A DNA stretch of 64,000 nt from Cafeteria roenbergensis (lineage: Eukaryota > Sar > Bigyra > Bicosoecida > Cafeteriaceae): assembly GCA_008330645.1 (NCBI GenBank), contig VLTN01000068.1:62001-126000 (forward strand), written 5' to 3'. The notes under the pieces are model-generated. The model saw only the letters and a program-made list of their open reading frames with translations, made no database searches and was not told the origin of the DNA. This document shows, piece by piece, positions 2,393 through 32,000 of the stretch (position 1 is the stretch's first letter; each line of letters begins with the position of its first letter). The position numbers and the translations under genes are program-made.

Positions 2393-3478
2393 ATGGACTT
2401 CCTCTTCTCCGGCTCCGGCATCGCTGCTGCTGCGGTGGCAGCGACGCTTGGGGCGAGCACGGCGCTCGCGTTGGCGTTTGGCGACGAGGACCCTCCCGCC
2501 GGTCCGGCTGAGCATCGCGCAGCTGGCACGCAGGCCGCGGCCATCGCCGCTGGCCGGGTGTTCCCCAGCAAGAGTACGGGAATGCACCTCGCCTTTCGCG
2601 AGTGGAATCCGCGCGCTGAGGTCCGGATGAGCGTTGTCGTGCTGCACGGCTTCGGCGAGCACTGCGGCCGCTACGACCACGTCGCCCGGGCGCTCGGCGA
2701 GCGCTGCGGCGCGGCAGTGTTTGCGTACGACCACCAGGGGCATGGCGCGTCGGAGGGGGTCCGTGCGCACTGCAAGCGCTTCAGCGACCTGGTCGACGAC
2801 GCGGAGGGCTTCCTTGCGTTTCTGCGAGCCTCCGGCCGCCTCCGCGACGGCGAGCCGCTGGTGATCCTGGGACACTCAATGGGCGGGCTTGTCGCTGCGC
2901 ACCTGTGCCGGCGCATCCAGGACGGCAGGGTGGAGGGCGTGACGCCTCACGCTGCGGGTCCCGTACCGGCCGGGGCCTCCGTGCCCTTTGTCGGTCTGGT
3001 GCTGTCCTCCCCGTTCTTCAAGGTGGCTGCCGCCACGGACACGCCCGCGCTGCGCGCCGCGTCCAGCGCCCTCTCCGCGACCCTTCCGCTCCTCCCCGTC
3101 GTGGCTCTGGACGTCAACGCCGTGGCGGCCAACGCCTCGGTGCGCTCCCAGTACGCGGCGGACCCGCTCGTGTACCACGGCATGGTCAGGGCTCGCATGG
3201 GCGCCGAGATGTCCGCCGCCTGCGCGTCCATCCTCGCCTCCGCCAAGGAGCTCGTCCTCCCTTCGCTCCACCTCGTGTTCGGCGGGTCGGACACTCTGGT
3301 CGACCCGCAGGGGGCGCGGGACGTCGCAGCGGCCTGCTCCGTTGCCGAGGGCGGCATCAGCGAGGTGCTGGAGCTGGAAGGATCGCTGCACGAGGTGCTC
3401 AACGACGACCGGTCCGCCGAGGTCATCGACGGCATCGCAGCCTTCCTGCTTCGCAGGCGGGCCGCGGTTTCGCGCTAG
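2393..3478 (+). CDS. Alpha/beta hydrolase, monoacylglycerol lipase-like
   Basis: The 361-residue product is a serine hydrolase of the monoacylglycerol lipase/lysophospholipase type, expected to cleave monoacylglycerols or lysolipids at a membrane. The nucleophile elbow GHSMGG places Ser162; the acid is probably Asp300 in GGSDTLVDP and the base His333 in SLHEVLND, so the triad is complete. The oxyanion-side HGFGEH and the DHQGHG(A/S)EG motif are also family hallmarks. I chose the ATG at 2393 because it begins a hydrophobic, Ala-rich stretch of about 25 residues that looks like a signal anchor. The open frame extends further upstream, but that part is low-complexity. No intron is needed. Substrate is inferred from the family only. 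Confidence 0.88.
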   Translation: MDFLFSGSGIAAAAVAATLGASTALALAFGDEDPPAGPAEHRAAGTQAAAIAAGRVFPSKSTGMHLAFREWNPRAEVRMSVVVLHGFGEHCGRYDHVARALGERCGAAVFAYDHQGHGASEGVRAHCKRFSDLVDDAEGFLAFLRASGRLRDGEPLVILGHSMGGLVAAHLCRRIQDGRVEGVTPHAAGPVPAGASVPFVGLVLSSPFFKVAAATDTPALRAASSALSATLPLLPVVALDVNAVAANASVRSQYAADPLVYHGMVRARMGAEMSAACASILASAKELVLPSLHLVFGGSDTLVDPQGARDVAAACSVAEGGISEVLELEGSLHEVLNDDRSAEVIDGIAAFLLRRRAAVSR

Positions 3479-3883
3479 ACGCGCCGCGCGGCGCGACCCG
3501 TCGCGGATCATGCTGCCGTGACCGGGCAGCTGGAGGGGGCAAGGCGGCGCGGCGCTGCGGCGACAGCCCGGCGCGGCGCTGCGGCGACAGCCCGGCGCGG
3601 CGCTGCGGCGACAGCTCGGCGCGGCAGACATCCGCTTGGCAGGCGGGGATAGCGTGAGGCCACAGACTGGTGGGGAGGGCACGGTCCATATGCTTTGATT
3701 GTGTGTGTTTTACGCGCGCCGGCGCTGTTGCGCCCCGTGCGTCGTGCGTGAGCAGGTGGGCGGTGCCTCCAGCGGCGGAGACCAAACCGGATTGGGTTTT
3801 GTGGCCGCACGCTGCGCTCGGTCCGGAAGCCGCCTCTGCCGGCCTGCCACCCGCCGCCGTGCACACCTCATTCCCGCAGCCCG
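3479..3883. other. Convergent 3' region between lipase and dCTPase genes
   Basis: This gap holds the two facing 3' ends. It contains a 24-bp tandem repeat (3546-3625) just after the lipase stop and a GT-rich stretch around 3694-3711 that may mark the cleavage and polyadenylation zone of the lipase transcript. No AATAAA was seen. Confidence 0.5.
3546..3625. repeat. 24-bp tandem repeat, about 3.3 copies
   Basis: Three copies of a 24-bp GC-rich unit (GGCGCGGCGCTGCGGCGACA followed by GCCC), the third with one change, plus a partial fourth. It begins about 65 bp after the lipase stop codon, so it probably lies in that gene's 3' UTR. Confidence 0.9.
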
Positions 3884-4886: not shown

Positions 4887-7800
4887 ATGCCGGGCGCGAG
4901 GGGGCTTCCAGTGCTGGCGGTGGTGCTGCTCGCCTGCTCGGCGACGGGCGGCGCAGCGTCCCTCCGGACCGGCCCCAGTGCCGGCCCATGCGCCACAGCG
5001 AATGTGCATGTCGGGGCAGCGCATGCTCGCAGCACGGCGGAGGACATCAGCACGCCGGTGCTTAACCCCAGCACTGGCCTCCCCGTTTGGTTCCGCAACG
5101 TGACCGTCAGCCGCACCGTTGGCTTCCCGCCCTACTCCGTGGTCATGACGGTTGCCGACCTCGTAGCGCCCCTCCCCGATTCGTTCCTTAACTCGTCCAG
5201 CGCGAACGGCACGGCCAACAGCTCCGTGTTCGTCCCGCCCGAAGACTTCCAGGAGCGAGCCGTTCCGTCGCAGTTCGGCACGCCCCGGCTCGTCTACATG
5301 CCGCACTTCCGGCCGGGAGTCACGCCGCCGGTGACCTGCGACGTGCTCCACGCGGAGCGGGTGCTGGAGGACGTGTGGCAGGGCGTCTTCGTGGTGAAGT
5401 CGTCGCAGGAGCTGGTGGTGCTGGGCTGCGTGGGGCAGGTGCCCGTGACGATGCCGACGCGCGTGTCGCTGCGGGTGGAGGAGTACGCGGGGACGCTGCC
5501 GCTGGTGATTACCTGGAGCGTGGGGTCGGGCATCGGTGCCGTGGTGGTGCTGCTGCTGAGCCGTGGGCTGCGGCGGGGCCTGGTGCCCGTGTATGACTTC
5601 AAGGCGCAGTTCATCGTGCTGGTGCGCGTTGTGGTGGCGCCCCTCTACTTCCTCATGCTGATAGACCTGTGGCAGGCCAACGCGGGGTGGGTGGCGGACA
5701 CGCTGGCGGGGGTGTACGTGGCGGGGGCCGCCATCGTGGTCGGCGTTGGCCAGTGGTGGGTGCACCCGCGCAACATCGCGGCGGCGGGGGTCACGACGGC
5801 CCCCTCTGTGCAAGGCTGGGCGTGGTCCTTCCGCGCGCGAAACGTCGTGGTCGTGTGCACCGGCGTCATGGGAGCGCACATGCTTGCCTCGCTGTGGAGC
5901 GGGCTCATGGGGCTGCGAATGTTCCAGGCACCCGGGGGCATCTGGCGGCGAGTCCCGCTGCTTGACCTGTCGCTGGTGACGGTGCTGCTCATGGACGGGC
6001 CCGTGATTGCGGCCGCGACCTACACGCTGGTTCGGGACGAAGCCGACGTCTTCATCCCGCTCAGCGCGTGGCCCGTGGCTGTGGCGGCCGGCGGGGCCAT
6101 CCTGGTGGAGTTCATCATGGCCCTGGCCGCGCCCCTGGCCGCTGACGAGGCCGTCCAGATCACCCGCCTGACTGCCCTCTACGCGATGCGCAGGGAGATC
6201 CAGTGGATCCGGCGGAAGGACAAGGAGCGCGAGGCGGCGGAAAGAAAGGCCGCGCGAGAGCGCGCGAGGCTGGCCGTGTCCGGGGGCGCCGTCGAGGCGG
6301 AAGAGGCCATGGACGACGGGGCGACCACCGTGGTGCGCAAGGTCGGGGTGGTGGCGCCCTCCCGCGGCCTGGCCGTTGACGTGGACGACAGCGCGGCGGT
6401 GCGGCCGACGGACGGCAAGGGGATGGGAGGCCGCGATGCCCCCGCCGCGGTGGAGGAGGCGCTTGCGTTTGACGCCGTGGAGGGCGTGGGGCCGGAGCAG
6501 GGAGGCGAGCTGGGCCTGGCGCTGGACGAGGGGGGAGGCTACGCCGGCGCGCTCAAGCCCATCCCGTACGTGCCGGGGGTGCGCCGCGACGCGGTGGTGT
6601 ACATGCGGTCCGTGGGCCACCAGGCGGTGACCGTGCCGGGGGTGCCCCGGCCGGACCGCGTGGCGGGCCGAGGGGCCCTGCGAGGCGGGGAGCTGGACGA
6701 CGAGACGGGCCTCCCTGCCCTCCGCGAGGAGGGCGTGTGGGGCGGGAACGGCGCCATGGAGGTGGTCGGGCGGCCCATCACCCCGCCTGAGGAGCGCCGG
6801 CGGAGGGCGCGGAAGGACGCTGAGAGGGCCGCCCGCAAGGCGCGCCGGACAGCCCGGCGGGAGGCCCGCCGGCAGGCGCTGCTCGGTCAGCTGACGGGCA
6901 GGATCGAGGAGGCGGTGCTCACTGCGCGGTCCCGCGAGAGCGGGACCGCGAGAACGGCGCGCGGCGAGGGTGGCGGGATCGGCGGCCGGGGCGGCGGGAT
7001 GAAGGACGCGGTCGGCCTGGCGGACACGCGCTCCAGTCTCGGGTCGGGTATGGGGAGCCGTCTCGACGCACCCACGGCGAGGTCCGACTTCACCACCGGC
7101 GGCCTCATGACGCTGCGGTCCGAGGGGCCCCTTGGGAAGGCGGGAGCGGCTTCGCGGGAGTCTGAGGGAGGCAAGGCGCGCGCGTCAGCCACCGGCAGGT
7201 CGGTCTCTGCTGCGCCGTCAGCGCGGCGCCCGGGGCCTCAACCAGCGGCGGAACCAGCAGCCGCAGGCCCGGCTGCCGGAACGGGGCGGTCTGCGAGTAC
7301 CGGCCCCACAACGGGGAGTTCGCGGTTCCGGTCCGTTGCGAGCAGCCGGCGGTCCACCCGCAGCGCGCTTCCGGCCACAGGCAGGACCGGGGACAATTCG
7401 GCGACCGGCCGGACGGGGCCCTCAACGACGCGGGGCACAGAGAGAACTGGCAGGAGCGACTCGCTGAGCGACGTGTCGGAGGGGACGGAGCTGGCATCGT
7501 CGTCGCGGCTTGGGCTGGACACCGGGAGGTCGCCCCTCGCGACCGGAAGGGCGAGCAGTGGCGCCGGGCCGACGCAGCAGCAGCGGTGGGACCCGGACGA
7601 CGAGGCCGCCACGGCCGACGTCGTCACCGCCCTGCGCGCCAAGCGGCGCGATGCCGCAGCTCGACGCGTTCAGCACTCCGGCCACGGGATCGCGGGCGGC
7701 GCGCCCGGCCGCATCCTCCACGTGCCCTCCACCCGATTGGTCACCACCAGCCAGCGCTTTCTCACTGGCGGCGTGGGCGGGAGGTCTGGCCGGGGCGGGC

Positions 7801-7925
7801 ACTGGGCGGACGCCAAGCCCACGGGTACGGGCCCGTCCTTCGGCGTGGCCCCTGGAGCAGCTCCGCCTGACGCCGCGTCCGCGCGGCTCGTAGCGCTCAA
7901 GCAGAGCGTTCGGAACTTGGTCTGA
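4887..7925 (+). CDS. Unidentified multi-pass membrane protein with long disordered tail
   Basis: I do not recognise this 1012-residue protein. It starts with a probable signal peptide (residues 1-24, LPVLAVVLLACSATGG), followed by an extracytoplasmic domain of about 180 residues with several N-glycosylation sequons (NVT, NSS, NGT). About six hydrophobic segments follow, near residues 203-228, 241-262, 270-291, 319-342, 357-383 and 394-418. Then comes a charged, probably coiled-coil helix rich in Arg, Lys and Glu (about 430-470). The last 500 or more residues are low-complexity, with Gly/Ser/Thr/Arg-rich stretches and many TGR triplets. A helical bundle of six TM segments behind an N-terminal ectodomain could be a receptor or transporter, but nothing in the sequence decides that. 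The ATG at 4887 was chosen because it begins the signal peptide; the frame stays open further upstream. Confidence 0.75.
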   Translation: MPGARGLPVLAVVLLACSATGGAASLRTGPSAGPCATANVHVGAAHARSTAEDISTPVLNPSTGLPVWFRNVTVSRTVGFPPYSVVMTVADLVAPLPDSFLNSSSANGTANSSVFVPPEDFQERAVPSQFGTPRLVYMPHFRPGVTPPVTCDVLHAERVLEDVWQGVFVVKSSQELVVLGCVGQVPVTMPTRVSLRVEEYAGTLPLVITWSVGSGIGAVVVLLLSRGLRRGLVPVYDFKAQFIVLVRVVVAPLYFLMLIDLWQANAGWVADTLAGVYVAGAAIVVGVGQWWVHPRNIAAAGVTTAPSVQGWAWSFRARNVVVVCTGVMGAHMLASLWSGLMGLRMFQAPGGIWRRVPLLDLSLVTVLLMDGPVIAAATYTLVRDEADVFIPLSAWPVAVAAGGAILVEFIMALAAPLAADEAVQITRLTALYAMRREIQWIRRKDKEREAAERKAARERARLAVSGGAVEAEEAMDDGATTVVRKVGVVAPSRGLAVDVDDSAAVRPTDGKGMGGRDAPAAVEEALAFDAVEGVGPEQGGELGLALDEGGGYAGALKPIPYVPGVRRDAVVYMRSVGHQAVTVPGVPRPDRVAGRGALRGGELDDETGLPALREEGVWGGNGAMEVVGRPITPPEERRRRARKDAERAARKARRTARREARRQALLGQLTGRIEEAVLTARSRESGTARTARGEGGGIGGRGGGMKDAVGLADTRSSLGSGMGSRLDAPTARSDFTTGGLMTLRSEGPLGKAGAASRESEGGKARASATGRSVSAAPSARRPGPQPAAEPAAAGPAAGTGRSASTGPTTGSSRFRSVASSRRSTRSALPATGRTGDNSATGRTGPSTTRGTERTGRSDSLSDVSEGTELASSSRLGLDTGRSPLATGRASSGAGPTQQQRWDPDDEAATADVVTALRAKRRDAAARRVQHSGHGIAGGAPGRILHVPSTRLVTTSQRFLTGGVGGRSGRGGHWADAKPTGTGPSFGVAPGAAPPDAASARLVALKQSVRNLV

Positions 7926-8258
7926 CCCGCTGACAACTTGCGCCGTGGCGCGCGCCAGCCTGCCCGAGTGATCGTTTGTGTTGTTTGGGCCTGGGGAGGG
8001 GTTGGTGGCTGGCGGGGCCGGCTCGAGCGGCGAGCCCTCAATCCTCGCTGAACCGCGGCCAGCGTCTGCCAGCAACCACAGCCGCGGGGGCAAAGAGAGG
8101 CGCAGTATTCGAAGCAGCTCCACCCGCCACACAAACACAGATGGGGGCGGACGGGCGGGCACGGGTCGAAGCCGTTGCAGCAACCATGCGCTGCCAGCGA
8201 GAGCTGGCGCAAGCGGTCGCGTGAGACAAACACCAAATGCAGCGTTGGCATGACGGGC
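7926..8258. other. Convergent 3' region
   Basis: This gap lies between two facing stop codons. T/G-rich stretches follow the plus-strand gene (about 7973-7987) and, on the minus strand, follow the EF-hand gene (about 8237-8223 and 8142-8130). They are candidate 3'-end processing signals. No gene seen. Confidence 0.45.
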
Positions 8259-9832
8259 TTACATTGCGCCGGAAGCAATGGCAGCTTCGCGAACGAGGAC
8301 GAGGAACTCGCGGAAGGAGAGCTGGCCGTCGTGGTCGGCGTCGAACCTGGCCACGAGCGCCTGCGCCTCGGCCTCGCTGATGTCGCAGCCGATGCGGTGC
8401 AGGCCGCGTCGCAGGTCGTGGGGAGGGCAGCCGGCCGCGCCCCGCTCTGCCATGCCGTCGTGGATGTCCCGCGCGGAGAGGGAGGTGCTGGCGAACGCGT
8501 CGCCCACGCGCTCCAGCAGGTCCGCCATGCCGCCTCGCACGCCGCTGCCCGCCAGCGGATCCGCCGCCTCGTAGCTGCGGTAGGAGGCCACGCGGGGCGC
8601 GTGGCTGCGGGGCAGGGCGGTGGCCGGGCGAGAGCGCGTGCGGGACGGCTCCCTGCGACGGGAGGCGCCCATCGCGGCGCTCGCGTCCTCCGCGGGGCCC
8701 TCCGGCCGGCTGAGCAGCAGGCGGAACTGGGCGAAGGTCAAGGTGCAGCCCTCAAGCCCTGCAGAGTCCATCATCGCCTGCAGCTGCGCCAGAGGCACGG
8801 GGAAGCCCTCGCGTCGCAACGCGGAAGCGAGGCCGGAGAGCCGCAGCTCGGGGCGCCGGGAAACGGAGCGATACGCGCGCCACGCCTGCTGCAGCGTGCC
8901 GTGCTTGTTCCACACATGCAGGCGCACCGCATCAGAGGCCTCCTCTGTGCGAGCGTCCCGGGACCGGCGAGGCATGCCGCGCGAGCCCGCACGCCGCGGA
9001 TGCGCCTCCGCGAGCCGCCGTGAGAGCGTCGAGGCCTCGTCACGACGCAAAAATGCCGCCTCCTCGACGGCGCTGCAAAACTCCTCGTAGTCCACACTCC
9101 CGCTCCCGTCGGTGTCGAACACCCGCATCAGATCGCGAAGCTGGGCCTTGTCCACGCGAATCTGCGCACGGGGCCAGCGGGCAAAACGGTGCACGGTTGC
9201 CGAGGGCGGCGCCGGCAGCAGGCGCGGGCGGGCGCGCGGGGCCCGGAGCTGCGCGCCGCTGTGGCCTAGGCCGAGCTCACGCCGAGCTGATCAAGCGCGT
9301 ATCCCAAGTCCTCGCTGCCGATCTTGCCGTCGCCCATGTCGAACCGCAAGAAGGCGGCGCGGATGTCGACCTCGCGCCTGTAGATTTTCTCCGCGAGCAA
9401 GGACAAGATCATGCCGCTGGTCTCCCCGGCCTTGGTGTCGGCAACCACTTGCTTGCCGGCGTTGCGCTCGCGCGCCGCCGTCAGGGCGTGCTCCAGGGTC
9501 TGCGCGCCTCAAGGGAGTCCAGGGGAGAGCCTCGCCGTTGCATGCAGTTGAGCGGCAACCAAACCTCGCGGGCTTGCGGTGCCGCACTGAGCGCGAAGCC
9601 ACAGCCCCCCGCAGCCTTTCTATGGAGAGCAATGCCCCACAGCCGCGTGCGGCGAGGGGCTCGTGCCCTTAGGACTGGGGCTCGCTGAGTTGCCTCGCGG
9701 GCAGAGAGGGCAGCAGCGTGAGCTCACCTCCATCGCGTCGCTGAGGAGCTGAGCCCGGTCCGAGGCCGACAGCTCGGCGAGCTCGTCGAATCGTTTGCCC
9801 ATTGATGCGAAAGCGACCTCGAACGATGCCAT
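8259..9832 (-). CDS. EF-hand calcium-binding protein, three exons
   Basis: I assemble three exons, 9832-9728, 9499-9281 and 9161-8259. The introns are 228 and 119 nt; both start GTGAGC, both end GCGCAG, and both lie in phase 0. The 408-residue product has two canonical EF-hand loops, at residues 124-135 (DTDGSGSVDYEE) and 382-393 (DADHDGQLSFRE). A degenerate loop in exon 2 (FDMGDGKIGSED, apparently one residue short) precedes the first. The middle is basic and low-complexity, with weak helical segments that may be decayed hands. A calcium sensor or calcium-regulated adaptor is likely, but no subfamily could be assigned. Retaining intron 2 would end the protein four codons past the splice site. 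It is divergent from the TRPM-like channel with 296 bp between starts. Confidence 0.85.
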
Positions 9833-18075: not shown

Positions 18076-21000
18076 TCACGCCGTCTCGTCCGGCTCGTCC
18101 AGGCCCTGCGCCTTGTTTGCCTCTGCTCGCAGCGAGGCGGCCAGCGACGCCCAGTGCGCCTCCCACCGCACCACTGACTCGAACAGCCCAGTGTACCACC
18201 GGTCGGTCGTGCCTGAAACCGCTCGGCAGCCCTCGCCGAACGCCCGCCAGGCGGCGTCTCGAGTGCGCATGACGTGCCTGCTGCACTCGCTGTACCGCGA
18301 CACGGCGGCCTCGCCCGCGGCAGCGCCGGCCGGCAAGAGGACGCGCGCGCGCTCCTCGGCCTCCGCCTGCGCGGCGCTGCCCCACTCCTGCGACGCCGGA
18401 AGCGCAAGCAGCGACTCCGGGCGCGGCGACAGAACTGCCCAGCGGCGCCGCTTGTAGGCTCGCGTGGGCACCCCTGCGCCATCTACGGCCGTGCCCGGGC
18501 CCTCGGGAGGAAGCATGGCGCCGGCCTCGGCGAGCGCCCTCTCGGCAGCAGCTGCTTTCGCCGCCTTCTCCGCAGCCTCGCGTGCGGCGTCTTCCTCGGC
18601 CGCCGCGCCCGCTGCCCCCTTCTTGCCACCCTTGGCAGCGGGCTTGGCCTTGGCCCCCTTGCCCGTTGCAGCCGCCTCCTCCTCCGCTGCCGCTGCAAGC
18701 CGCGCCGCTTCCTCGGCCGCCGCCGCGCTCTCCGCCTTGTCCCGCCGCAGCTGCTTGCGGAGCCGGCGCAGCCCCAGCTTCGTCGGCGCCTCCTCCTCGT
18801 CCCCCGGCAGCGCCGCCAGGTCCTCCGCGATGAGCATCGCGTCGCTCACCCGCAGGCACCACGCGGCGCAGTGCACCGCCCGGCGGCGCAGCAGCTCCCC
18901 GCCAATGCGCCGCGCCAGCAGCTCCCTGGCCCTGCCCGTGGCCACCATGGCTGCGTGCTCCTCGCACCGTCGGCGCTCCTCCCTGTCCAGCTCCTCGAGC
19001 TCTGCCGCCTTGTTCGGGTCGGCGAGGGACGGCACGAGGCGGGCCGTGTGGGCCTTGCGCACGTCCACCAGCGCCCGCGCGGCGCTGCGGAAGCGGCGCC
19101 TGGCCCAGCCAGCTGCGTCGTCGCTGTACCGCGCGGCGCGGGAGGCGACGTCTGCCACTGCCGCAGCGGGAGCCTCCGCCATTACCCGCCACAGCCGCTG
19201 CACTAGGTCGCGCAGCCGGCGGCAAGCGTCCACCCGCGCCGACTCGCAGCGCAGCTCCTCCCGCTCAAGGTAGTCCCGAAGGCTCTGAGGCAGGCCGGCC
19301 TCGCCCTCGGCCAGCGGCTCCCCCTCCTCGTCGAACAGCCTCCTGGTCGCCTCGCGGCAGGCTGCCAGAGCCTCCTGCACCTGCGCCCGAAGCGGGGGGG
19401 ATGCCGCTGCGTCGGCCGCATCCGCAGCAGCTGCTTCCTCCTCCGCTGCCTTGGCCGCAGCGGCCGCCGCCGCGGCGTCCGCCTTGCCCTTGCCCTTGCC
19501 CGTGCTCTTCCCAGCCTTGGCCCCCTTGGGCGCGGCCGCGGCAGCTGCTGCGGCAGCCGCCTCCGCCTCCGCCTCCGCATCTGCAGCCTTGGAGCGACCG
19601 CCGCCCCTGGGGGGCTCGTCGCTGAGGGTCAGGTCTGCGCAGTCGTCGAACGGCCTCGTCTCCTCCTTGAGGGCCTCGAGCACGCGCGCGCGCCGCAGCA
19701 GCGCCTCGTGGATGCACAGCATGCAGAAGCGGAGGCGGGCGGAGAGCGACGGCGCGGCTCCGGCCGCCGCACTGCTGCCGCCCGCAAACAGCGGGGCCGC
19801 TGGGTCGCGCAGTGCTAGCGCGTCCAGCGCCTTGGGCGGAGCCTCCAGCCGCGGGCCGGACCTCGCCCCGGCCCCCGCCGCCACCGCTCCATCGTCGCCT
19901 GCCGCCGCGCCCTCGGCCTCCTCCTCGTCCCCACCGCCCCCATCGTCGCCGTCCTCCGCGTCGTCCTCGTCCTCGTCCTCCGTGGAGTCGCCGTCGCCCT
20001 CGCCCGCCGCGGCCCGCGCCTGCTTCCGCATTCGCCGCACGAACGCTGTCGCCCGGCCTCGCGCAGCCTGCAGCGTGGCGCCTCTGGCCATCAGACGCAC
20101 GGTAGCCTCGTCCTCCTCTTCGTCCTCCCCAGCGGCAAACCCGGCGCGAGGCGGCGCGGTGGTCGCCTCTGCCAGCATGGCCGACACGCCCTCTCCACGG
20201 GCGGCTGCGGCCTCTGCGGCCTCTGCGGCCGCCTGGGCGGCGGCCATGGCCTCGTTGGTGACCTCGTGGCTGGCGTCCGGCCCGCCAGCCCGCCGTCGCG
20301 CCTCGGCCTCCTGAAAGGCCGCTACCTCCCGCTCGCGCAGGGTCCTGCCGGCTGCCGACCCTTCCTCCGTCAGAGCCTCCAGCTCGTCCAGCCGAGCAAC
20401 GATGCGCCGCTCCTCCTCGTCGCTCCAGCCCAGCAGCGTGCGGAGTCGCTCGGTGCACTGCCGACGCGGCGCGCCGAAGCGCTTGCCCAGGCCTTCGCGC
20501 ATGGAGAGGGCGCGGAGGGAATCAGCAAAGGCCTGCTCGAACGCCGCGAGGCCCTCCTTGGCCTCCCGCTGCGCGGCAGTGACCGCCTCGGCGTCGGCGC
20601 GCCGCCTCGCGACGTCTGCTGCCAGCTCCTTCTCGGCCTGGGCGAGCGCTGCCGCCACGTCCCGCACCTCGGCGTCGTCGTACTCGCCCCCCTCCGCGAA
20701 CCGCGTGCAGGTTCGCATAAACTCCCGGTTCAGAGCGGTGAGACGCCTGGGCTCCGCGGCGGCATACCCTGCCAGGCGCGCCCGCCAGCCCTCCGCCTCG
20801 GTCTCGTACGCCACCAGCATGGCCTTGGCGCGGCTTTGCTGGCCCTGCAGCGCCGCCAAGGAGGCCTGCGCGGGCAAGCTGGACTGCAGTTCCGCCAGGC
20901 GGGCCACGAAGGCGGCCGTGTGCTGGCGCGCGGCCTCCGCCTCGCCGTCGAACGCCTTGGCCTGGCGGTCGGCCTTTTCCCGCCACGCGCGGCAGTGGCG

Positions 21001-24000
21001 CTCCAGCCGCTGCGCGTGGGCGAGCAGCTCGGCCTCTCGAGGAGCCCGCAGCTCCGTCTCCGCGCGCGCTTGCCGCGGCCAGTGCAAGCGCACTCGCTCA
21101 GTCAGCTCCGCCGTGAACAGGCTGACCCGGTCCTCGCACAGCTCGGCCGCCTGGACGCGCCTGGCCTGCGCCTGCCGCTGGAAGGCGCCGAGCAGCGCCT
21201 GCCGGATATCGGCCACCCACCCCGCAGCAACGTCGGCGTTCGCCTCACAGTACAGGGCCATTGGCTCGCCGCCGGGGCTGAGCGGCACCCCTCGGTCGTC
21301 CTCCACGCCGGCCGAGTACACAGCGGTGGCCGCCTCGTGGTCGCGGCGGGCGGCCGCCTCCTCGTCCTCGCGCTCCATCCCCGCGCGGGCCCTGGCCTCC
21401 CACTCCAGTTCCTCCTCCTCGTCGGCGGGCCGCGGCCACTGCTTTGCCTCGGCCTCTTCCTCTGCCGCCGCTGCCCCCTTCTTCCCGCCCTTGGGGCCCT
21501 TGGCCCCCCCGGCCTTGCCCTTGGCCGGCTTGGCAGCCGTCTTGCCGCCCTTGGCCCCCTTCCCCCCCGCCTTGGAAGCTGCCGCGGCCTCGGCCTCCGC
21601 CGCCGCGGCCGCCGCTGCCGCTTCCTCCTCCTCCTCCTTCGCTCGGCGGGCAGCCGCGCCGCCCGCCTCCTCCTCCTCAGCGCGCCGCCGTGCCTGCATC
21701 TCGGCCTCCGTCTCCCGGCGCGTCACCACAAGCGCAGCGGCCAGGTCGGCAACCGGCACCTCCTCTGCGTAGGTGGCGCCCTGCGCCCCGCCCGCCCCGG
21801 CCCCGCTGCCCGCTCCGGCCGCCCCGTCGTCGTCGGCCCCCTTGCCCTCCTCGGAGCTTCTTTCCCCCGCTGCGGCGCCGGCGTCTCCTGCTGGAACCGC
21901 CACCAGCTTACACCCGCGCACCTCCGCCTCCTCAAGGGTGCAGCTGGGCGTGGGGCCCTCCTCCTCCATCAGCAGCGCAGCTTCGTCCCGGGCTCCCGGC
22001 CGCACGGAGCGGGGCGAAACGCCGTCCTGGGGGTCCAGCGCCACGAGCTCGAGCAGCTCCGCGCCGAGCGGAGTGAGGCCCGGCGGCCCGCCGGCCGGAG
22101 GCCCTGCGCCACCGGCTGCCGCTCCGGCTGCCGCAGCCGTGTCCTGCTCGGCGGTGCCCGACGGTCCATCGCCTGCGCCAGCGCCGGCCCCAGACCTGGT
22201 GGCGCCTGCGGCTGGGTCACCCTCCGCGTGCTCCCCCCCCTCATCCGCTTCCTTCTCCTCCGCGGAGGCATCCGCGGCAGCTGCCTCGCGAGCGCCGTTC
22301 CTGGGCACGCCATCGATTCGGTCCGCGTCCGGGAAGCGCAGGCCAAACAGCTGGCAGAGCGCTCGCCGGTGACGCCTCACGTTGGCACCCACGGCCACAG
22401 GGTGCTCCCGCGACCGGGTCGTGACCTGCTCGTGATAGGCGCGGTACCCCTCCTCCACAGCAGTGAGCGCGGCCTGCACGTTGGCAAACCGCTCCGCCAA
22501 GGCGTCTTCATCCGGGCTCTGCCGGCAGAGCTTCGCGAGTCGCTCAAAGTCGGCTTCTCTGGCGGCGTGCGCCTCCTCGAAAGCGTCGAGGGCCTCGTTG
22601 AGGTCGTCCGCAGCGCCGTCGTCCACTGCGGTTTCACGCGTCGCGTGTCGGATGTCTGCGCGAGCAAGGCGCGACCAGAAGCGGCACAGGTTGACGCTGG
22701 CGGCGTCCAGTGCGCGGCTCTGCCGCTCGAGGAAGGCCGCGATCCTGTCGAGCAGGGCGGCGCCCTCGGCTTCGCGGCGCCGGATCACAGGGAGGAGGCC
22801 CTCCGCGATGGCTGCGTCGACCGCAGTGTTGGCCACCGCCTGCTTGCGGAGGGCTTGCAGCGCGTCGCGGAGAACGGCCTGGGCGTCGATTGGCAGCTCG
22901 CAGGCGACGACGAGCATGCCGACGCGCCGCTGCAGCGCCCTGAGCTCCGCCATGGGAAGGGTCTGGCCGATGACGGTCGAGCGGGCGTCGTCGGCGATGC
23001 TGCCCGCCCCTGCACCGCCCGACGCCCGCGAGCGCCTGCTGCGGCCGGACTTGGCAGACTTGCCGGCGCCGCTGGCCTGCGACCGCCGGCCGACGCTCGC
23101 GGCTCTGCCGCCCCTCCTCCCCACGCTGCGGTGGGCGACGGAGGCCCCCGTCGACCCGGACCGGTGCCTCGCCGTGGCCGCCCCGCCCGCGGCGCCCCCG
23201 CCCGCGGCGGAGGAGCCGTCGCCCGCGCCCTCGCCGCCGGCGCCGGCGGCGAGCCCCTCGCCAGTGGCCACTGCGCGCAGGGCCGCGGGCACCTCCAGCC
23301 GGTTGGCCACCAGCGCTTCGTAGCAAGCCTCGCACAGCTCCGCCAGGGCCTCTGCGCACGCCGCCAGCTCCGCGCTCACCACCGGCTCCAGCCCCGTGGC
23401 GGATGCCAGCCTGGCCGTCTGCGTCTGGAGGCGGGCAACCAGGCCTGGCAGCTCCGTTCGCCTGGCAGTGCGCATCTTGTCGGCCGTGGCGGCGAGCGCC
23501 TCGCGGTCCGCCGCCTTGCCCTGCTCGGCGAGCACGTCCCCCAGGGTGAGCGACGCGACCAGCAGCTCTGCCCGCTCTGCCGCGGCCTGCAGGTGCATCG
23601 CGAAGACGACCTCGTCGCTTGCAGCGCGCGACGCCAGCAGGGCCACCTCGCGCTGGAGGCCGCCGCCCCGCCGCCAGAGAGCTTCGTTTTCCGGTGCTGA
23701 GAGCACCTCGTCGTTGATCGCCTCGGCCACCTCGCGCAGACCCGAGGCCGGCGCCAGGGCCGCGAAGCCGTGCAGCTCCAGCCGTAGGGCGTCCCTGGCC
23801 TCGTCTGCGGCCTGAGAAGCGGCTGCCTGGGCGGCCTGAATGCCGCGGAAGCCGTCGGCGGCGGCGGCGGCCTCGGCATCAGCAGCGGCCTCGAGCTGGG
23901 CGCGCACGTCCGCCACCGCCTCCTCCGTGAGCTGGGGGGGGCGGAGAGCCGCCAGGCGTCGCAGGGCCGGCAGGAGCACCTGCTCGTGGACGCGTCCTTG

Positions 24001-26082
24001 CGCCTCTCGGAGCCTCGCCGCCGCCTGCACCCGGGCCGGCGGGTCGACGAACTCGGGCGAGTTGAGCCTCTCGCGCACCCGCTCCATGGCGTCGTCGTGC
24101 CGCAGGACGCGCCAGGCCTGCTGCGCGGCCTCCCACCGGCGCAGGTTGGCGGCCCGGCTGAGCGCGGCTGTGGCCAGCAGCTTCGCTCCGACGTCTGCCG
24201 CGTCCGTGCGGTTCTTGAGAGCCAGCGCGTTCACGTCGGCCGCCTCCTTGGCCACGATGCGCTCCACGGCGCCGGGCTGGGCATGGCCCACCGACGACAG
24301 GCGCGAGGTCAGGGCACGCAGCTCGGCACCAAGCCTGCGGGGGGGGGGCGGGCGGGGCGGAGCACGGGGAAGCCTTGCGGGGGCCGGCGGCAGGGACTTG
24401 CCACGTGGCGGCCAGAGGCGCAGGAGGCTGGAAGCGAGGGCGGCCAGAGGCGCAGGAGGCTGGAAGCGAGGGCGGCCAGAGGCGCAGGAGGCTGGAAGCG
24501 AGGGCGGCCAGAGGCGCAGGAGGCTGGAAGCGAGGGCGGCCAGAGGCGCAGGAGGCTGGAAGCGAGGGCGGCCAGAGGCGCAGGAGGCTGGAAGCGAGGG
24601 CGGCCAGAGGCGCAGGAGGCTGGAAGCGAGGGCGGCCAGAGGCGCAGGAGGCTGGAAGCGAGGGCGGCCAGAGGCGCAGGAGGCTGGAAGCGAGGGCGGC
24701 CAGAGGCGCAGGAGGCTGGAAGCGAGGGCGGCCAGAGGCGCAGGAGGCTGGAAGCGAGGGCGGCCAGAGGCGCAGGAGGCTGGAAGCGAGGGCGGCCAGA
24801 GGCGCAGGAGGCTGGAAGCGAGGGCGGCCAGAGGCGCAGGAGGCTGGAAGCGAGGGCGGCCAGAGGCGCAGGAGGCTGGAAGCGAGGGCGGCCAGAGGCG
24901 CAGGAGGCTAAGAGGGCGCGCGGCTTCGAGGGAAGCGACGGCGCCGCGGGGCCGCGCAGGCGGCTGTGCTGCAGCCTTGGCTCCGCGGACGGGGGGTCTC
25001 ACTCCTCGCAGCGACGGTTCTCCAGCTCTGTGAGGAAGGCCTTGAAGTCCTCGGCGCGCGCCACGCGCCGCTCCTCCAGCCCCTCCACTGCGGCCCAGCA
25101 CGCGGTGACGTCCTGCCTGCACATCGCTATGGCCTGCGTGGGGTCTTCGAGCGCGGCCAAGCGCGTCTCCACTTCGTCGTCCAGCTCTGCGAGCTGCTGC
25201 CTGAGGGCTCTGCCCGCCTCAAGCACGTCGTCCTCCGCCTGGTCGTAGAACTCCCGCTGCTTCACGAGCCACGCAGCCACGGCGGCGTCGTGGTCCGCCT
25301 TGCGCCTGGCCTGCATGGAGCGGATTCCAGCGCCGCCCTTTTGGCTGGCGGGCGCGGGCAGGTCGTGGCGGTGGCCGAGAGACTTGACCTCATCGGCGGC
25401 GGCGGCAGCTGCTCGGCGCGCTTCTGACGCTGGGTCGGCGCGCAGCAGCGCGAAGTCGCTGCAAAGGGGTGACGGGCGGGGTGGCGGGCGGGCGGGCGGG
25501 CGAGAGGGAGGGAGCAGCGGTGACAGGCGGCGCTGGAGGGCAGGCAGAGGCGCATGCGCCCAACGGGGGCCTGGTACAGCCGATTCGGTCGCTATACGCA
25601 GAAGCGAACCCGCTCGTGGATGTCTCGCGGGCCGCTGTCGGCTGTCGGGGCGAGCACAACCTGTCAGGCCGTTGCGCGACCTTTGCAGTGCGGCCCCAGT
25701 CACTGCTCGCCCCTGCAGCCTCGCGCTGGCAGGAGCGCCTGCCCAGTGCCATGCGCGCCAAAGCCTCGGGCAAAGGACGCAATGAGGCCGCCTTGCCTCG
25801 GCCAGGCGGCGGCGGCTGCCAGCAAGGCCGGCGGCAGCCTCACCTGGGCCTGATCACGTGGCCATCGGGCGCCCGAACCTCCGCCTGCGCGCCGTAATCC
25901 CGCTCTAAATTTTTGAACGACTTGCGGGGCTTGCGAAGAGATGCCATGAGCGCCCGCGGCGCCCTCGTCCCGCCGGCGGCGCCGCGGCCGCTCCGTGAGC
26001 TGACGCCCGTCGGCTCCACCACCGAGAGCTCGTCGCCCGACGACGACTCCCCGTCGTCATCGTAGCCGCCCGTCGCGGCCAT
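18076..26082 (-). CDS. CCDC180-like coiled-coil protein, three exons
   Basis: The model has exons 26082-25844, 25458-25003 and 24334-18076. The introns (385 and 668 nt) start GTGAGG and GTGAGA, and end TTGCAG and CCGCAG. Phases match and give 2317 residues. The N-terminal 400 residues are alpha-helical, and the passage VERIVAKEA...LKNRTDAA...WRVLRHDDA resembles the DUF4455 region of CCDC180, a large coiled-coil protein of motile cilia. The C-terminus ends in Trp-rich helices, as in DUF4456. Between them lie long Ala/Glu/Lys-rich coiled coils with several AKGGKKG-type low-complexity linkers. The family name rests on remembered pattern, not a search. The frame of exon 3 runs on through intron 2 only because a 32-bp minisatellite there lacks stops; that stretch should not be translated. 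Role inferred: structural protein of the axoneme. Confidence 0.7.
24407..24908. repeat. 32-bp minisatellite, about 15.7 near-identical copies, inside intron 2 of the CCDC180-like gene
   Basis: The unit GGCGGCCAGAGGCGCAGGAG plus 12 more bases (GCTGGAAGCGAG) is repeated head to tail with almost no variation, which points to recent expansion. Because 32 is not a multiple of three and the unit has no stop codon in these frames, long frames run through it on both strands. In the sense (minus) direction it is pyrimidine-rich and carries a TTCCAG in every unit. Confidence 0.95.
25473..25513. other. G-rich tract next to the intron 1 acceptor of the CCDC180-like gene
   Basis: Repeated GGGC blocks on the plus strand form a motif able to fold as a G-quadruplex. 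On the transcribed (minus) sense it is a C-rich pyrimidine tract ending about 14 bp before the TTGCAG acceptor. Confidence 0.6.
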
Positions 26083-26502
26083 CAGCAGCAGCCGGCGGCC
26101 GCGGCCTGGCTTGTGCGCCCGTCGCGCCTGGCCGCGCGGTCGCTGCCGGTTGCCAACGGTGTTTGCTGCCGGCCGGCAGAGCCGCCGCCCGCCGGCCTGG
26201 ACGCTGCAGCAGCAGCAACAGCTCCAGCAGCGGCGCTCGAACATCGCGGTTGCACATCAGCAAACGGTCAACGCGGCTGCACGAGCAGGGACTCTCGCTC
26301 GGAGTCCGCCTCCCCCCAGCCCCACAGGCCGCCCCGGGGCTCTTGCCTCGGCTTGCGCAGGGCCGGGAGCGCCCTCAGCCCAGCCCGGCGCCCAAATTCC
26401 GGGCACGCGACCGCGACTCAGCTGCAATCATCGCCAGGCTGCGCCAGCGGCCGCGTCGCTGAGCCCCCGCCCCGACAGCCACCGCCTCGGCACTCCGCGC
26501 CC
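26083..26502. promoter_or_regulatory. Divergent 5' region between CCDC180-like and F-box genes
   Basis: The two start codons are 420 bp apart and face away from each other. The stretch includes a short (GCAGCA)n-like run near 26203-26233. No further gene or clear promoter element was recognised. Confidence 0.4.
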
Positions 26503-28701
26503 ATGGCATCGGCCTCTGGGCCCAGCTTGCGGCCCGGCCACGATCTGCACGCGTGGGCGCGGGCGCAAGAAGCCGGTGCCAAGTGCTCGAGCCAATGTTC
26601 GTGGTGGCTCGACCCGCGAGTTTGCATGGACGCGCGCCTGGCCGTGGCCTCCTGGCTGGACGAAGCCGACCTCAAGGCCCTCAGCCTTGTAAACAAGGAC
26701 AGCCTGGCCTTTGCCCGCTGCGACGTGCTCTGGAAGCCGCTGTACCTGCGACGGTGAGCCTTGAGTTGCCGCGATGTCGGCCTCGGCGAGCGCATTCCCG
26801 GCCTCCTCGGCTGCGCAGCTCGCGCAGCGCGGCCCGGGGCGCCCGTGGCTTGCGCAGCGCCGCAAGGCGATGCCTCTTCCGCGCGTTGGCCCCCCCTGCT
26901 CCCCCCCTCGCGCAGGTATGGCGACTGCCGGCCCGGATTTTCGGTCCCGCCGGCTCCTCCGCAAACGCCGTCGAAGCGGCGGGCCAGGAGCAGCCCCCAC
27001 GAGGCCGCTGACCAAGAGACCCCCCCACGCCCCGCCGCCGCTGCCGAGGCTGGGTCGCCCGTTGAGTCCCCTCTCTCTGTGGCTGCGGCCACGCCGCCCA
27101 GGGCCGGCCAAGGCGGCGGGGGTCAAGCGCTGGCGGCTGGCCGGCACCGCACGCGAGCTGCAACCGTGGGCACCACCGTCGGCTTCCTGCCTCGGCCAAG
27201 CCGCGTGGAGCCAGACCTCGCCGCCCTTGCCACTACCGAGGCCCCCGGTGGCGTGTCCTGGTTCGAGCACGCCCGGCGGCGGTATTTGAGCCCTCTCGCC
27301 GGCGACACCGTGCAGGTGCTGTGGGACGGCGCGTTCAACCTGGTCGAGGGCGAGCGGGTGCGCTCCTACAGCGGCCGCGGCTGGTGGGACGCCAGCGTCG
27401 TGCGCAAGGACGCCGGGGGACGCTTTCTGGTGCACTACCTGCGCTGGTCAGCGGCTGTGTGGGACGAGTGGGTGCCGGCCGCCCGCATCCGGTGGCCCCC
27501 CGCCGACGCCCACGTGGCCTTGCGCTGGCGGCGCGGCGTGAGGACAGCCCGGAACCGCCTGCGCCGGGACCGCTCGGAGGAGGCGGCGGCGGGAACGGCA
27601 CCCGGGTCGGGCGCCGCCGCGGCTGGGCTGGGCCGCGCCGTCGGGGCGCAAGCCCCCTCCGGGGGGGAGGTGGGCCGGGCCCGCAGCGCGTCCATGCCGC
27701 TCGCCCTGGCCGCGGGCGCCCGGCCGCCGAGCCGCAGCTCTTGCGAGGCCGCCGCGGCGGAGGCGGCCTCGCGGCGAGACGCGTGCGTTGCGGAGGCCCA
27801 CCGGCGGTGGCCGTGGCTGGCCCGCTCGGGCGCCATGGACCCGTCGCGCGGCCCCACCGCGGCGGACGCGGATGCGCTGGCCCAGATGTGCGCCGACGGC
27901 GAGGCGCGGCGCGACTGCGAAGGGCTGCCCGACCTTCGCCCCGGCGATGTGGTGGAGCTGCGCTGCGTGTCGTCGCTCGGCCGCTCCCCCTGGCTGGAGA
28001 CGGTGGTGGACGCCGTGGTGCCGATGGAGTGGAGCCGCAGGGCGCTCACGCCCGATGTTGAGGCGGCCGTTATCGAGCAGCTGGAGCTGTGGCTGGAGGC
28101 CTGCGAGGCGGAGGCGGAGCGACGCCGAAGCCTCGGGGAGGACGCGCCAGAGCGGCCGGCCTCACCGTTTGCGGCCACGCCCTCCCCCCTCGCCGCGCTG
28201 GCGCCCCGCCCTGTGGCCGTGTCAGGCAGAGGGCGCCCCACGGGGCACGCGCAGCGCCTCGCGGCGCCGGAGAGGGGATCTGCCATCGCCCCGCCGTCGG
28301 CCGTGCAGCGCAGGGCTGTGGTCCCTGCCATGGGCGCTGTCTCCCTCGCCGGCCTCGCCCGGCAGCCCAGCCTCAACGGGGCCGGAGTGCGCGCTGCCGC
28401 GTCGGCTGCCGTGGCCCGCATCAGCGGAACCCCCATCCCGCGCAAGGAGCGTGACGAACTGCCCTTCGGCACGGTCGCGTTCCGCGTCGGGCAAGCTGTG
28501 ATGGACGAGGACAACCGGCTTGTAGCGAGGCATCGGCTGCGGCTGTTGCGCCGCGGACCCTCCTCCGACAGCGCGGGCGCAGCGGCCGCAAGAGGGCACG
28601 CACGCTGCGGGCTGGGGTGCGCAGCGTCGCCCGGAGCCGCCGCCTCAAGGCCCACGCCTGCCCCCCAGGAGGGGCCCCGTCAGGGCTGCGTGGTCATGTG
28701 A
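26503..28701 (+). CDS. F-box protein with Tudor-knot/chromo-barrel domain, two exons
   Basis: Exons 26503-26753 and 26916-28701 join across a 162-nt intron (GTGAGC...GCGCAG) in phase 2 and give 678 residues. Exon 1 ends in an F-box-like segment (residues about 45-84): ASWLDEADLKALSLVNK followed by LWKPLYLRR. It continues across the junction into YGDC, as the F-box does in many SCF receptors. Residues about 180-250 form a Tudor-knot or chromo-barrel-like domain: GDTVQVLWDG, GRGWWDASVV, FLVHYLRW and WDEWVP, the pattern of MSL3/MRG15/Tip60-type barrels. A second, weaker barrel-like segment starts near residue 390 (LRPGDVVELRC). F-box proteins recruit substrates to SCF ubiquitin ligases; the barrel suggests a chromatin or methyl-lysine target, which is inference. 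The ATG at 26503 is the first sensible one before the F-box. Confidence 0.75.
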
Positions 28702-29006
28702 GCGCCCTGTCTTCGTTCTCTTCGTTGTGTGCGGGCTGCCTCGGCGTGCACTGTTGGCGCCAGAGCGCTGCGTGGTGCGTCTGCCAGCGCTTTTGATTGC
28801 TTTCGCGCTCTGTGATTGGCTGCACGACTGCGGCGGGGCCGTCCGCTCGCGTGGCACCGAACCCCGCTCTTGCACGCGCGCTGCCAGAGCACACGAGCAA
28901 TGGGCTATCACCTGGTGTGAATGCTCTCCGAATCAGGCAGGTACGCACACGCCAACAAGCACGCACACAGTCACACGAACGAGGCGCCGCAAACAGCGGT
29001 GCGTTG
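28702..29006. other. Convergent 3' region
   Basis: This 305-bp gap lies between facing stop codons. A T/G-rich stretch follows the F-box gene (about 28708-28731). On the other side a run of ACAC-type sequence (about 28945-28981) reads as GT-rich downstream of the minus-strand gene. No gene seen. Confidence 0.45.
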
Positions 29007-32000
29007 CTACCACCACCCGTCGTGGCCAGAGCTTCGTCGCGTCACCCGGCCGGGCACCACCGGGGGCTTCGACACAGCAGCCACTGGCTCAGTCGCGGAT
29101 GCCTCTTGGGCTGCTGCCGCAGCGATTTGCGCATCAACAAAGCTAGAGCGCGAGGCGCCAGCGCGCGACGGCTCGCCCGGCGGTCCCAGGGCTGCCCTGA
29201 GACGCGCGGCGTATTCTGCCAGGCCTTCTTGCGCCGAGCCCCCCGGGCAGGCCAGCACTTGCTCGGCGACGTGAAGCCCAGCGCGTAACCCTGCGCCCTC
29301 AGCCCCCTCCGCCGCCCAATCCTGCCGCACGCCGAGCCAGGCCAGCAGCGCCGAGTCGTAAGGGGCTGCCTCGCGGTCGAGCGTGTCTGCCACGAGGAGC
29401 TGCAGCGGCCTGATCAAGCTCGCAGCGGCACCCAGCCTCCCCTGAGCCGCGCACAGCCCGGCGGCAGCCCCGGGGGCGACCCCAGCCGCCGTGAATAGGC
29501 AGCTGGCGGCCCGTGGGTCGCAGTCTGCCGCAAGAATTGCGGCTGCCAGCACGCCTGGGTCCACCTCAGCGTCTGTGGCGGGCACGAGCGCGGCGGACGC
29601 GAGTCGAAGTGCGGCTGCAAGCCTCGCCGGGCCGGGCGTGCTCGCACCCGCGGTCGAGGCCGGGGCGGCCTCCGGCCCGCGCTCGCATGGCCCGTGCGCG
29701 GCTGCAACGGCCAGAAAACCGCACCACGACGCCAGCGCGCTTGCCGCCTCCGCTGGAGATGCCTCCCCATCATGGAGCTGGACTGCGCGGCGCAGTTGGC
29801 GCACTGTCGCGCTCGTCGCGTCCAGGGCGAGCAACGAGAGCACCTCGGCGCGCACTGGCCGTGCCTCGCAGGAGACGCCGATCGCGAGGGCAGATGCCGT
29901 CGGCGCCCACTGTCGCCCGGACGAGTCGACGGCAGCGGCGCATCCCAGCGCAGCATGGATGGCGTGAAGCGGCTGGGGCAGCCGGCCGCCCAGCGGCCCA
30001 GCAGCCCACCGCTGTGCCTCGGCGCATGCGCCGAACCCCGAGTGCTGCGCCCAAAGCGGAACCCAGAGCCGGCGGCCCGCCTGTGGCCAGCCCGGCGGGG
30101 CTTGCGCGAGAGCGATGACTGCAGCGGGCCCAACAATGCCACCCGCACGTGAGCGGCCCGGCTTGGCCGCGACCGAGAAAAGGCAGGCAGCCAGAAGCGG
30201 CTCCCGCTCTTCTCCCGGCCAGCAAACCGGCGAGAGCTGAGCTGGCTCTCCGCCGGCAGCCCCAAGCCGCAGCACAGCTGCGGCACCGTCGGAGCGCCTC
30301 AGCAGGCACGCGAGGCCGCTTGACACAGCCGCAGCAGCGCCGGCCAGCCGGTCAGGCGGTGTGACTTGAGGAGCCCGCGACGCCGATTCGGGCGCCTCCG
30401 CTGGACTGTCTCTCGTCCCGGCGGCACCTCCCGCGCCAGCCCACACCCATGCTGCGTCCTCGACTCCCGATGCACACGCGCCGACGCAGCGAGGGTGCCA
30501 CCCATGGGGCAACACTGCCGCTCGAGTCAGCGAGACAGCCGCCTGCCGCCGGCAGCGCTGCAATGCCGAGCCGCGAACGGCAGGGTCGGGAGAGGCCACC
30601 GCCGCAAGCGCCGTGGCCATTGCGCGGGCGCGGTCTGTGGCGTCTGACAACGAATCCACGCCTGGCCGCTCCCAAGAGACCCTGAACAGCAGGACAACGC
30701 CGCGGGCGCCCCCTCTGCCTTGCTCGCCGGAGCGAGCCCCAGCGACATCGGATGGAGTCGCAGCAACCGCGCAAGAGGCGGCAGTGCCCCTGCCACGAGA
30801 GAGGCTGAGGGCGGCGCCGACGCCGGTGCGGTCGGCGGCGCACAGCATCGCGACCCACGCGCTGGACGGCGACAGCGGCCCCACGGGACTCGCAGACACG
30901 GGCACGAGCCCCGGCGGGAGTGGCACGCGAGCAAAGCAGCCCGTGCGGTGATCACCTCGCGCCGGGGGGCGCCAGCTCCTCGCGCTGGGCGCCATGAGCC
31001 ACACGAACCGGCGGCGTTCCCGCAGGCGCCACGTGGGCCCTCCGCGGACAGCGACCTCACCCCTGCCCCTGGCCTTGCCACCCGCCTCCTGCTGCTCGGC
31101 CTCCGCGGCCTCCTCCGCTGCCGCCGCGTCAGCGTCCGCGTCGACATCCCCACCCTCGTCGTCGTCGTCGGAGCCGGTCGCTTCGGCGCCCCGCGGCTCG
31201 CAACCCCAATCGGCGCCAGCTTGCAGCCAGAACGAGGGCGAGGTGAGCGCGTCCAGCGGCGGAAGCAGGCGCCAGCACGCGCTTGGCGCGTGCGTCGCCG
31301 CCCGCTGCTCCCAGCACTCGGCAGCAGCTGCTGCAACAGCCGCAGACGGCCTGGGGGCCCACGGATCGCCCTGGCCCTCCTCCAGGACGTCGGCGAGCAC
31401 CGCCTCCTCTTCTGCTCCTGCGACCAGCAGGCAGCCGCCTGCGTCGCCAGGGAGCCAGGCCATGGTCTCGGCGCGAACGCAACTGCCCGCCCTCCCACCC
31501 AGGGCGTGCCAGTGCCCACCCGCTGTCCGGCAGAGCACGCCTCTCGCCCCAGCCACGGCGATTCTGCTCTTGCTGGCTGCCGGCCCCACAGGCTCGCCGG
31601 CTGCCATCCGTAGGCCGCCCCACCCGAGGCCCTCTGGCCCCACAGGGAGCTCCTCCGTCTGCTCCACAACGCCTGCTCCCGAGGGGAGCAGCAGCCTCAC
31701 CGCAGGCGAGCCGCCGCCGCCACCTGGCTGAAGTGCCGGCGCCCACCCGATCACGGCGGCGCACTTGCCCGCAGTTCGAGTGCCGCCCACACACGCGGGT
31801 ACGGCGCTGCTGCTGGGCCGGCGCCACAGCGGCACCAGCGCGCCCTCGTGCTCCAGCAGCGGCGCGGGGGCGGCCGATTCCGGCGAAATCCCGCGCGCCG
31901 CAGCTGCGGCCTCAGCGGGCGAGCTGGCGCTGCTGGGCCCTCCGGCCGCTGCTTCCGCGCTGGACCGCGACACCCCTCCTCCCACCAGCAGGAGCGCGCG

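Follow-up and report, generated by a model that had tools for sequence, protein, structure and literature searches.

A minisatellite in a predicted intron of a Cafeteria roenbergensis CCDC180 homologue mimics coding sequence

The tandem array described here reads as an open, apparently coding sequence. It almost certainly sits in intron 2 of a CCDC180-like gene, from whose message it would be removed by splicing. This was the proposal of the sequence-only reading, and it is now well supported by homology, by the stop codon that retention of the intron would introduce, and by the loss of codon bias within it. We consider it very probable that the array is a neutral or near-neutral minisatellite, which expanded within the intron and is spliced out with it. 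The window referred to throughout is the whole 64,000-nucleotide stretch of DNA that was analysed (contig VLTN01000068.1, positions 62,001 to 126,000), which has a GC content of 71.2%. The gene lies on its minus strand, and the features discussed below are as follows.

25844-25947, minus strand: exon 1, with the ATG at 25947; predicted from its GTGAGG donor and the open spliced frame, with no homology match of its own
25459-25843, minus strand: intron 1, 385 bp; predicted from GT-AG sites and the open spliced frame
25003-25458, minus strand: exon 2, matching DUF4455 profile positions 2-104; profile match of 33.3 bits
24335-25002, minus strand: intron 2, 668 bp, GTGAG...GCAG; predicted from splice sites, phase, loss of codon bias and homology across the junction
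24407-24909, no strand assigned: minisatellite, 15.7 perfect 32-bp copies; Tandem Repeats Finder and copy-by-copy comparison
18076-24334, minus strand: exon 3 with the stop codon, matching DUF4455 profile positions 108-297 and 287-462, and DUF4456; profile matches

The array

Tandem Repeats Finder (TRF) assigns the array a period of 32, with 100% matches and 0% indels, and a score of 1006, compared with 155 for the second-best of its 19 rows in the window. The array is 503 bases long and is far beyond chance expectation. When the copies are compared one by one, all 16 rows (15 full and one 23-base partial) show 0 differences from the 32-bp unit, which is 75% GC. Minisatellites are made of head-to-tail units of about 10-100 bp, and the array falls within this description. 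The count of about 15.7 near-identical copies had been read correctly from the letters. The coordinates given with it, 24335-25002, hold for the whole of intron 2 and not for the array itself, which makes up 75% of the intron and is separated from exon 3 by 72 bp and from exon 2 by 93 bp.

Replication slippage, or unequal exchange between misaligned units, is the probable origin of the copies, and either process would also keep them identical. Provided that the assembly is correct, the copies have diverged by less than about 0.6% since they were homogenised (0 of 503 bases, by the rule of three), and the expansion may well have been recent. It is very unlikely that the copy number or the perfect identity is an artefact of assembly or polishing, given that 503 bp falls within the length of a long read and that the coding exons on either side of the array are unique and in the phase expected. 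If the source is the BVI assembly, PMC6972860 describes it as produced with Canu on PacBio reads, with polishing first by PacBio and afterwards by Illumina reads, and polishing could even out differences between copies. On the basis of these published methods, the 100% identity could partly reflect read-based polishing rather than recent expansion.

A dispersed repeat family is unsupported. The first 23 bases of the unit, with up to 3 mismatches, have no copy elsewhere in the window (shuffles also gave 0), and a DNA search of the genome (36,303,456 bases in 167 contigs) with the unit scored one candidate place, the array locus itself. Counts from this search are lower bounds; it passes over simple repeats and very common words, and does not prove that copies are absent. 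There were 0 exact matches of the unit in viral_contigs, where records from the same genome or its near kin may be excluded.

The gene and its second intron

Joining the three exons gives a single open frame of 2272 codons. The donor of intron 2 is GGA/GTGAG, with exon 2 ending at 25003, and the acceptor is CCCGCAG/G, with exon 3 starting at 24334. Exons 1 and 2 together contribute 560 nt, so that codon 187 is split between exons 2 and 3 in matching phase. The intron length is not a multiple of 3, and retention of the intron would produce a stop after residue 187, at the junction. Intron 2 thus has the GT-AG ends, matching phase and open spliced frame of a spliceosomal intron, and both splice sites and the phase are as originally proposed. 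We infer from these features that it is spliced in cells. A special RNA structure for intron 2 is not supported: there is no excess of structure, and the fold is weaker than those of shuffled sequences (z +3.26), with 20 of 20 shuffles folding at least as well.

Judged by its sequence, the gene is a homologue of CCDC180, a protein of the flagellar central apparatus. Exon 3 alone matches DUF4455 (145.4 bits) and DUF4456 (68.5 bits), both over the curated cut-offs. DUF4455 followed by DUF4456 is the domain pair that we take to mark CCDC180, and the pair is present here. A search of the genome with the DUF4455 profile gave three pieces among the best candidates scored, all from this gene. In the unspliced genome, the match in exon 2 stops at profile position 104 and exon 3 picks up at 108. 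In the spliced protein there is one DUF4455 stretch (E 2.8e-40), in which residues 85-381 align with profile positions 2-297, running across the split codon 187.

A search with the first 500 residues identified mouse CCDC180 (9ijj_F, entry 9IJJ; E 7.7e-08) as the sole distinct PDB sequence at E <=1. The alignment is gap-free over query residues 78-281, and the junction at codon 187 lies inside it. Entry 9IJJ is the mouse sperm central apparatus, in which CCDC180 is positioned along the C1 microtubule (PMC12297659). The continuity across the junction proposed in the sequence-only reading is therefore borne out by the profile and by the mouse protein.

Codon bias

A codon model was trained on exon 3 minus its first 900 bases, and the contrast drawn is consequently within one gene. 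On this model, the score in bits per codon is +0.60 for exon 2 in its own frame and +0.48 over the opening 600 bases of exon 3; each of the three sense frames of the array scores between -0.69 and -0.70. A sliding score lies between +0.45 and +0.77 bits per codon in the frame of exon 2; in the frame of exon 3, it is -0.36 to -0.78 for windows starting in or just before intron 2, and +0.20 to +0.76 within exon 3. The sliding score thus goes negative at the donor of intron 2 and positive again at the acceptor. GC content by codon position is flat in the array (0.75 at each), compared with 0.81/0.58/0.86 in coding sequence. A coding tandem repeat would have a unit that is a multiple of 3 and show coding bias within the array; the unit here is 32 bp, and there is no bias.

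Why the array looks coding

As the sequence-only reading had noted, the frames that cross the array contain no stop codon, and this is so on both strands. As the unit length of 32 is not divisible by 3, successive copies are read in all three phases whichever frame is chosen, and a strand is open either in all frames or in none. The stop-free array is unremarkable, a by-product of base composition, as a unit of 75% GC seldom has a stop. In 20,000 trials, shuffled units were stop-free in 70% of cases on the plus strand, 89% on the minus strand and 63% on both. The open frame is therefore what composition gives, because nearly nine in ten shuffles of the same 32 bases are also stop-free on the strand of the gene.

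Long open frames are also found elsewhere in this gene. A stop-to-stop frame of 1293 codons runs antisense to CCDC180 exon 3 (window 19819-23700, plus strand); open frames mean little at such a GC content.

In the long sense ORF (18076-25218) no ATG occurs before or within the array, the first being at 24087, past its downstream end. The ATG-initiated ORFs over the array are both antisense (plus strand), at 23840-25033 and 24283-25248, with 397 and 321 codons. With the first sense ATG so placed, ORF callers that depend on an ATG would call the antisense strand. It had been predicted that automatic annotation would probably create a false repeat protein, and this prediction is weakened. According to PMC6972860, the published annotation of Cafeteria roenbergensis was produced with BRAKER, for which transcript data served as training, and WindowMasker is listed for repeat detection.

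It is extremely unlikely that either of these two ORFs is a real antisense gene for a repeat protein. Both start with ATG and span all 503 bases of the array, but they overlap the conserved CCDC180 coding sequence of the opposite strand, and open antisense frames are expected in a GC-rich genome, as the frame over exon 3 illustrates. On the antisense strand, the codon model scores the array at about 0 and gives -0.09 or less both for exon 2 and for the beginning of exon 3.

Alternative splice sites within the array

Since there is no sense ATG upstream of or inside the array, the repeat could join exon 3 only via an acceptor in or before the array. It could be proposed on this basis that the repeat belongs to exon 3, with a CAG in the array used as acceptor, in which case CCDC180 would gain 31 + 32n repeat residues. 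The full unit has one CTTCCAG and zero GT on the sense strand, so that the array could give acceptors but not donors. There are 15 copies of CTTCCAG in the sense strand of the array, each resembling a 3' splice site and each with 11/15 pyrimidines upstream. With five of the 15, the reading frame would stay open as far as the gene's end, giving proteins of 2303 to 2431 residues. Of the 24 AGs in the intron besides the proposed acceptor, 8 keep the frame, one of them at the array edge (window 24908). The alternative 3' splice sites in the array could then form a ladder, generating minor CCDC180 isoforms longer by 31, 63, 95, 127 or 159 residues.

Against this, the DUF4455 and mouse CCDC180 matches continue through the junction with no insertion, and neither the codon scores of the array nor the length of its unit is that of coding sequence. 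The acceptor at 24335 is richer in pyrimidines than the array sites (13/15 vs 11/15), and is also the one supported by homology. The repeat peptide has no Pfam match over the curated cut-off, and three below it. We therefore see little chance that the repeat belongs to exon 3, and an equally slight one that the array works as a ladder. If the ladder did operate, a change in copy number between strains or alleles would shift which isoforms are possible.

Similar arrays in the genome

The reading that we favour, a minisatellite removed together with intron 2, describes a situation that may occur more than once in this genome, and arrays like that in the CCDC180 intron are not rare in it. A TRF survey was made of 264 kb, comprising the window and 20 ten-kb stretches, each spanning bases 20001-30000 of a contig chosen by its number. 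It gave 64 non-overlapping arrays with periods of 9-100, of which 11 have at least 4 copies. Four of the 11 combine a period of 20-60 with 5 or more copies and 95% or more matches, and pass the filter set on these values, namely 24407-24909 in the window, 3114-3541 in stretch L018, and 2945-3135 and 7179-7289 in stretch L022. The 200 kb outside the window thus contain three comparable arrays, which would correspond to some 15 per megabase, in a sample that is small. No such arrays were present in two six-kb stretches adjacent to the window.

The first of the L022 arrays lies in a second apparent intron, a 281-bp GT-AG stretch at 2877-3157, of which its 5.8 copies of a 33-bp unit occupy 68%. 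Just before this stretch, the upstream frame has a codon score of +0.19 to +0.27; after it, the frame predicted by splicing scores +0.04 to +0.38 for about 200 bases, and then the signal fades. The 140-residue spliced stretch has no Pfam match at E <=1, and the whole ORF has one sub-threshold PAN match. The intron call, drawn from the splice sites, the frame shift and weak codon scores, is an apparent one. The L018 array (9.1 copies of a 47-bp unit, 98% match) starts 79 bases past a 546-codon stop-to-stop ORF, and looks intergenic or part of a 3' UTR. The largest array of the survey, outside the filter, is at 6145-8696 in stretch L010: 2.5 kb in which a 30-bp unit is repeated about 86 times with divergence between copies (81% match), in long open frames on both strands.

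Comparison with known systems

The CCDC180 array is an ordinary intronic minisatellite, a known kind of repeat. It resembles intronic minisatellites of the VNTR type in unit length, head-to-tail copies and intronic position, and does not differ from them in kind. Length variation between strains, predicted in the sequence-only reading, may also occur; a copy number that differs among individuals is the mark of the hypervariable subclass. In two green algae, the density of tandem repeats was highest in introns among the regions compared (PMC3887541). That survey counts all tandem repeats, the abundant intron motif being the dinucleotide GT/AC, and supports intron repeats in general rather than 32-bp units. 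Human segmental duplications contain internal tandem repeats that change exons or introns; their units are 30 bp on average and may be retained in transcripts or removed from them by splicing (PMC2812944). The human repeats come with transcript evidence and copy-number variants among paralogues; the CCDC180 array is described from genomic DNA, and it lies away from the exon boundaries (72 bp/93 bp). A literature search found nothing on minisatellites in Cafeteria roenbergensis, or on intron minisatellites in haptophytes.

The species is named Cafeteria roenbergensis in PMC6972860, and the same assemblies are named C. burkhardae in PMC8547959. If the sequence is from strain BVI or a near relative, long-read data exist for three sister strains; PMC6972860 also names public transcript data of strain E4-10P. 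Identification as a photosynthetic alga is unsupported, as matches to photosystem I and light-harvesting proteins are absent from the genome search: no match was found to PsaA/PsaB or to a chlorophyll-binding protein, in a search that is blind to introns and a genome that is possibly incomplete.

Significance

The finding serves mostly as a warning: where the GC content of a genome is about 70%, the fact that a repeat is crossed by an open frame is almost no evidence of coding, and the tests that decide the status of such repeats are homology over the junction and codon bias. Should its copy number prove variable, the locus could be used to tell strains apart.
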